Source: Methanolobus sp. (GTDB taxonomy: Archaea; Halobacteriota; Methanosarcinia; Methanosarcinales; Methanosarcinaceae). From it: a stretch of 60,090 bases of DNA. Positions 10,386-10,894 of this stretch are shown piece after piece (positions within the stretch are counted from its first letter, which is position 1; each line of letters begins with the position of its first letter). The notes under the pieces are model-generated. The model was not told where the DNA came from. It did not search any database and saw only the letters and a program-made list of their open reading frames with translations. Made by a program: the position numbers and the translations under genes. The stretch is from assembly GCA_030154025.1 (NCBI GenBank), contig JASKKT010000007.1:1-60090 (forward strand), written 5' to 3'.

Positions 10386-10445
10386 GGTTACCACTATTAA
10401 ATGGTCTTGATTAGTATTTAATCATTGCTAAAAAACTATGCTGCG

Positions 10446-10470
10446 AAAAAAAGAGGAGTTTTACCTCCTC
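10446..10470 (-). terminator. Stem-loop plus T-run terminator
   Basis: Read on the minus strand, GAGGAG-GTAAAA-CTCCTC is followed directly by seven T residues. It lies 28 bases past the stop of the 25-codon lysine-rich gene and closes that transcript before the BofA-like gene. Confidence 0.75.
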
Positions 10471-10498
10471 AAAAGAACGAAAGTTAAGAAATGTAAGA

Positions 10499-10576
10499 TT
10501 ATTTCTTCTTCTGATCCTTTGCAGGGGCCTTTACTGCTCCCTTCTTGTCATCCTTCTTCTGATCCTTTGGTGCCAT
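10499..10576 (-). CDS. 25-residue lysine-rich microprotein
   Basis: A short reading frame with an exceptionally strong ribosome binding site: GGGAGGTGAG lies at 10582-10591, five bases before the ATG at 10576. The product is 25 residues, starting MAPKDQKKDDKKG and ending APAKDQKKK, with two copies of a (A)PKDQKK-like element, about eleven Lys and no hydrophobic core. It should be disordered and strongly basic, so nucleic-acid or ribosome association is plausible. A hairpin/T-run terminator follows, and a TATA-like element (revcomp of TATATAAAAC, about 10758-10769) lies upstream. I know of no named family. Confidence 0.7.
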   Translation of the reverse strand: MAPKDQKKDDKKGAVKAPAKDQKKK

Positions 10577-10591
10577 TATATCTCACCTCCC

Positions 10592-10894
10592 ATGGAGAGA
10601 TACCCTCGTTTGTTTTAAAGAATTCAAACAAGCCATACCGGTTTTTCGTAGCAATCAATACTGCGCTAACCATATAGAGCTGTTATCAGACTTCAAGGAT
10701 TGATTCAGTGGCTAATTGGGGCCAGTTAACCAATCTAGAGTGTAATACTCACATTATCTATATAAAACTACCTTTTTAAGTCTTTTTCGTGGATTCAGCT
10801 TATGATTATTGCTTAAAACCAGTTTAAAGGTACTACATGAAGTATTATTGCAGGAGGATAAAATAGCTCTTTTCGCGTTTCTCTGCACCAGCAA
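10592..10894. other. Intergenic region, 303 bases
   Basis: The stretch between the microprotein gene and the DNPH1-like stop codon is A/T-rich. It holds a probable minus-strand TATA box near 10758-10769, which would give the microprotein a leader of about 150 bases, and an isolated AGGAGG at 10854-10859 with no following start codon. I see no tRNA-like fold or further ORF. Confidence 0.5.

Follow-up and report, generated by a model that had tools for sequence, protein, structure and literature searches.

Does a 25-codon, lysine-rich open reading frame (ORF) on the minus strand of a 60,090-nt stretch of Methanolobus DNA (hereafter the window) represent a gene, and if so, what might its product and the RNA that carries it do? 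The ORF, MAPKDQKKDDKKGAVKAPAKDQKKK, occupies positions 10499..10576 (-) including its TAA stop, with the ATG start codon at 10576-10574 and the 25 codons plus TAA running from 10576 to 10499. A perfect Shine-Dalgarno (SD) sequence, GGAGGTGA (10583..10590, -), which matches the usual archaeal 16S tail over 8 nt, lies within the region GGGAGGTGAG (10591-10582, -) at a spacing of 6 nt from the ATG. Downstream, an intrinsic terminator (10446..10470, -) consists of a GC-rich 6-bp stem, GAGGAG-GTAAAA-CTCCTC (10470-10453), followed by T7 (10452-10446); as an isolated hairpin it has a folding energy of -15.5 kcal/mol (z -2.9). The peptide contains 10 Lys, 4 Asp and one hydrophobic residue after Met1, and the two PKDQKK-like repeats announced in an earlier, sequence-only reading of this DNA were located as PKDQKK (residues 3-8) and AKDQKK (residues 19-24). 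That reading had taken the ribosome-binding site, ATG, 25 codons, stop and terminator to form a complete tiny gene. This was borne out, as the frame, SD and terminator are kept in homologues, but the extent was drawn too short: that reading had overlooked a structured leader and, about 190 nt upstream of the ATG, a promoter, as well as tandem arrays of the gene and its cassette-like insertion. Nine of the ten lysine codons are AAG, against 60% AAG in neighbouring genes, a bias compatible with high expression, the number of codons being small. The SD motif alone is only mildly enriched, since GGAGGTGA with an ATG 4-9 nt downstream occurs at 7 sites in the whole 2.26 Mb genome (G000) and the reversed control pattern at 4 sites in the same genome; the ORFs that follow the remaining 6 of the 7 sites are long (92-488 aa). 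At the sequence level it is conservation, rather than enrichment of the SD motif, that decides in favour of a gene.

The peptide is encoded by 7 of the 27 Methanolobus genomes, one orthologue lying at G006:C1:1583155-1583392. In a second genus, g11 (presumably Methanomethylovorans), a profile matched 5 of 6 genomes, where the matches form tandem arrays of 1-3 ORFs. The array ORFs have 23-24 codons, are spaced by about 132 nt and possess an SD each, with a single terminator after the last ORF. Once the members found through the leader (see below) are added, all six g11 genomes hold at least one, and the family ranges from 23 to 38 residues. The relatives' peptides have a net charge of +6 to +9, about 40% lysine and almost no hydrophobic residues; GGAGGTGA is kept before every single or first copy, with GAGGTGA before second and third array copies, and the terminator hairpin is kept with differing stem sequences (GGGGG/CCCCC in g11). 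The frame was examined in a coding test in which alignment columns were permuted, divergence and relatedness being preserved. Synonymous codon differences amounted to 57% versus 19% expected in Methanolobus and 54% versus 24% expected in g11 (permutation P=0.0002 in each genus), while the sense +1 and +2 frames scored far lower. The earlier reading had named synonymous change within a conserved frame as support for coding, and the lack of any frame-keeping homologue as its refutation; the former is present in two genera, and the frame is kept in the 7 Methanolobus and 5 g11 genomes. By this comparative measure the reading frame is under purifying selection, and a protein-coding microprotein gene is well supported. 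Since the gene is patchily distributed, with 20 of the 27 Methanolobus genomes lacking it, it would have no core function. Profile searches gave no match at E<0.001 in the rest of the order (186 genomes, Methanosarcina included) or among 393 genomes sampled from the phylum, and there was none in the viral contigs searched; weak profile matches in Methanosarcina and other genera were inspected and lacked an SD-led short lysine-rich ORF. A search of 112 genomes for the tail pattern (D/E)QK(K/R)K-stop led to six matches in genus g6 (one per genome), which were rejected as 64-aa zinc-ribbon proteins, in our view resembling ribosomal L24e; the other matches outside the family were mostly due to chance.

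Transcription can be placed by means of a TATA box, TTTTATATA, at 10759..10767 (-). The string AGTTTTATATA stands about 190 nt before the ATG and is identical in 7/7 Methanolobus copies, including that of G013 at a different genomic place. In the Methanolobus copies the motif AGATTG begins 30 nt downstream of where TTTATATA begins, the distance in g11 being nearly equal; the spacing between the TATA box and the leader's 5' hairpin is fixed. Because AGATTG keeps this fixed spacing, the transcription start is predicted at or beside its A, around window position 10736. Two further elements were observed in the vicinity. One is a TTTAAACT-N2-TTTTAA-like element that precedes the TATA box by about 55 nt (10820-10835, -); it is conserved across six Methanolobus copies and, loosely, in G013 and g11, and is a candidate activator site. 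Between the TATA box and the start (10740-10758, -), a near-palindrome kept in several Methanolobus copies (ATAGTATGCATATTAT in G006 and G018, ATAGTATACATACTAT in G012) is a possible repressor site.

The predicted transcript opens with a 5' untranslated leader of about 160 nt (10577..10737, -), which is covered by two covariance models, R1 and R2. Its 5'-terminal hairpin P1 (AGAUUG..CAAUC; 10697..10736, -) begins at the predicted transcription start and has compensatory pairs in g11 (GAUCG/CGAUC, GAUUA/UAAUC). The central stem P2 (AACAGCU..UAU / AUG-GC-UUGUU; 10627..10684, -) encloses hairpin P3 (10649-10663, -), and into it falls the conserved block TGATAACAGCTCTATA (10673..10688, -), whose GATAACAGCT does not differ among the Methanolobus copies (7/7). 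The SD itself is covered by a hairpin, GUAUCUC-UCC..GGA-GGUGAGAUAU (10578..10603, -), which is invariant in six Methanolobus; the exact string of this region occurs in five Methanolobus genomes only. Control by the leader would not be universal, because G013 has another 7-bp hairpin in place of the SD hairpin and the g11 arrays have a weak one or none; the central stem, too, is missing from most of the g11 array leaders, and the second and third array copies have no evident SD hairpin. Standard pairs fill 83.6% of the pair cells across 11 leaders, versus 33-44% when partners are slid by 1-3, and double-sided changes affect 9 of 34 pairs versus 4.9 in shuffles (7 of 500 shuffles being equally high), figures that lean towards structure in that the leader alignment (A6) was fitted to it. 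The double changes occur in P1, P2 and P3, and those in the 5' hairpin include U-A to C-G and G-C to A-U. Single-sequence folds (z -2.0 for the window, -3.7 for G012 and -1.6 for G068) recover the 5' and SD hairpins, more weakly in G068. With covarying base pairs present and their statistics modest, a structured leader is likely, and gating of the SD by it is plausible. A covariance-model search of the leader against Rfam 15 gave no match near the gathering score.

The leader can also be used to find the peptide. Model R1, for which only Methanolobus leaders were used and which is blind to the peptide, matched G068:C33 (E 1.5e-8) and G070:C159 (E 5.5e-4), as well as the leader of the known G069 array (E 0.002). 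The former two leaders open new lysine-rich microproteins, MAKKEEQKKGAKAPEKGAKAPEPAKGAAKAPAKGQKKK and MAKKEEQKKGAKAPEPAKAASKAPAKKKK (ORFs of the form MAKKEEQKKGAK..., 38 and 29 aa), with the same SD and a terminator. Model R2 lifted a fourth match, G069:C121, to 1.7e-13, and the ORF behind it is MAKKDEQKKGAKESAPTKAASKTTGKKKK. Searching by leader only thus added three g11 lysine-rich microproteins of 29-38 aa, and at E<0.01 it recovered lysine-rich microprotein loci exclusively. As judged from these matches, the leader of about 160 nt accompanies lysine-rich microproteins even as the peptide changes. In G068 and G070, the longer microprotein gene (loci L121 and L122) is closely followed by a DEAD-box RNA helicase-like gene, which appears to have a promoter and a long leader of its own. 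A link to the helicase was set aside: the G068 and G070 copies are possibly a single shared locus, and the G069 copy was not seen beside a helicase.

Taken at the level of sequence comparison, the frame is selected, the promoter, SD, terminator and leader are conserved, the gene has been duplicated, and the whole was inserted as a unit. We therefore favour, with reasonable though far from complete confidence, an autonomous single-gene unit for an abundant polycationic peptide that would bind RNA, DNA or ribosomes, its translation plausibly controlled by the leader. The canonical TATA box, full SD, strong terminator, AAG bias, arrays and peptide composition are explained most simply by a polyanion-binding peptide that is highly expressed. 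The leader would fold into the 5' hairpin, central stem and SD hairpin and so limit or time ribosome access, while the 5' hairpin may stabilise the RNA. Produced in quantity, the peptide would make electrostatic contact with polyanions (RNA, ribosomes or DNA) and could condense them or serve as a small RNA chaperone, the array copies providing a higher dose. We infer such binding from composition alone, and the earlier proposal of a basic, disordered product binding nucleic acid or ribosomes fits that composition. A more tentative extension, which we regard as possible but doubtful, is that the leader belongs to a new archaeal regulatory RNA class (a thermometer, a riboswitch or a peptide-bound feedback site) for mobile lysine-rich microproteins, with the peptide binding its own leader and tuning its own translation. 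In view of the cold-induced sRNAs of Methanolobus psychrophilus, cold regulation of the locus is a lead.

The strongest rival is a dual-function or mainly regulatory small RNA, in which the transcript of about 290 nt with its folded leader would act and the peptide would be secondary. Conservation of the leader equals that of the ORF, and the leader is found by its structure and sequence alone; moreover, sRNA154 of M. mazei has been proposed as a dual-function RNA (PMC11456600), and 195 intergenic sRNAs, many of them cold-induced, have been mapped in Methanolobus psychrophilus (PMC5378194). The ORF itself speaks for a different emphasis, as it shows a strong synonymous excess, its copies multiply in arrays without duplication of the leader, and its composition is kept while its length varies in multiples of three. 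We consider this rival rather unlikely.

The favoured polycationic peptide must also be weighed against a type I toxin-antitoxin-like unit, in which a short toxic peptide would be silenced by a leader hiding the ribosome-binding site. The tandem arrays, the SD-covering hairpin and the patchy, cassette-like distribution would all suit such a unit, and bacterial type I toxins (Ldr, Ibs, Fst) likewise combine tiny ORFs, tandem copies and structured leaders. Type I toxins are, however, mostly hydrophobic membrane peptides, whereas the microprotein is polycationic with at most one hydrophobic residue after Met1, and no antisense RNA gene was recognised here in an unsystematic look for antisense promoters, which together make a toxin improbable.

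The genomic surroundings bear on a third rival. The cassette extends over approximately 10437..10880 (-) and is absent from other Methanolobus genomes checked, in which the empty site lies between a nucleoside deoxyribosyltransferase-like gene and the promoter of a BofA-like gene. The gap between these neighbours measures 59-72 nt in inspected gene-less Methanolobus versus about 506-525 nt in inspected carriers, in which the BofA promoter is unchanged beyond the terminator. Cassette-like arrival of the unit follows from the empty site in the other Methanolobus checked, and one clade acquired the unit as a single block of about 440 bp. No flanking repeats marking a mobile element were found at the cassette, and the copies of G013 and g11 sit at other genomic places with other neighbours. 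Ten lysine codons followed by a terminator, with a class I lysyl-tRNA synthetase gene nearby, might suggest a leader peptide or attenuator that senses lysine or lysyl-tRNA supply and acts on a downstream gene. This is very improbable, as the lysS neighbourhood is identical in genomes without the cassette, so that the adjacency was dismissed as coincidence; BofA has its own promoter beyond the terminator, the differing neighbours in G013 and g11 leave no fixed downstream operon, and arrays of complete ORFs would be senseless for attenuation. A chance intergenic ORF, for which the very short length and low complexity might speak, is already refuted, since two genera conserve the frame, SD, promoter and terminator, and do so at several loci; its probability is negligible.

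Pfam, NCBIfam and PDB sequence searches with the microprotein returned no relative, a full-text literature search for the peptide strings returned nothing, and no earlier description of the family with its dedicated leader was found within the literature and databases searched. Unannotated archaeal small proteins as such are already a known kind (PMC11456600). The M. mazei small proteins detected by Ribo-seq and peptidomics are likewise standalone intergenic small ORFs of the same order that annotation had missed, some of them in transcripts initially called sRNAs (PMC11456600), whereas no homologue of the present family occurs in Methanosarcina genomes by profile at the strict threshold, and the main text of that paper does not mention lysine-rich peptides. 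In Methanolobus psychrophilus R15, 24% of mRNAs have a 5'UTR of more than 150 nt, and stem-loop masking of the ribosome-binding site has been proposed for some leaders (PMC5378194); these long structured 5'UTRs come from the same genus, but the leaders described there belong to ordinary genes, and the other cases are non-coding RNAs. Lysine-rich disordered tails, such as those of histone H1 and snoRNP regions (PMC11528048), are similarly rich in Lys, Ala, Pro and Glu, disordered and net positive, but they are domains of larger proteins and not a whole protein of 23-38 residues, and the likeness is one of composition. The locus adds a protein family, absent from current libraries, with a dedicated conserved RNA leader, in archaea about whose microproteins and regulatory RNA leaders little is known. 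With promoter, leader, ORF and terminator within about 320 bp, and being cassette-mobile and tandem-amplified, it offers a clean test object. With a lysine every two to three residues, the peptide would be shredded in routine tryptic proteomics, which may explain the oversight.

The arrays themselves yielded two minor observations, both in G068. Four N bases within its second array ORF (L098:5270-5338) mask part of the peptide. Behind the array (L098:5074-5175, -) stands a third, variant lysine-rich ORF of 33 aa, MVAKEQKKAGSKKPAQEEASYHTYPSGGSQKRK, which has a GGAGGTGA of its own as well as a terminator-like hairpin; its peptide has no Pfam or NCBIfam match.
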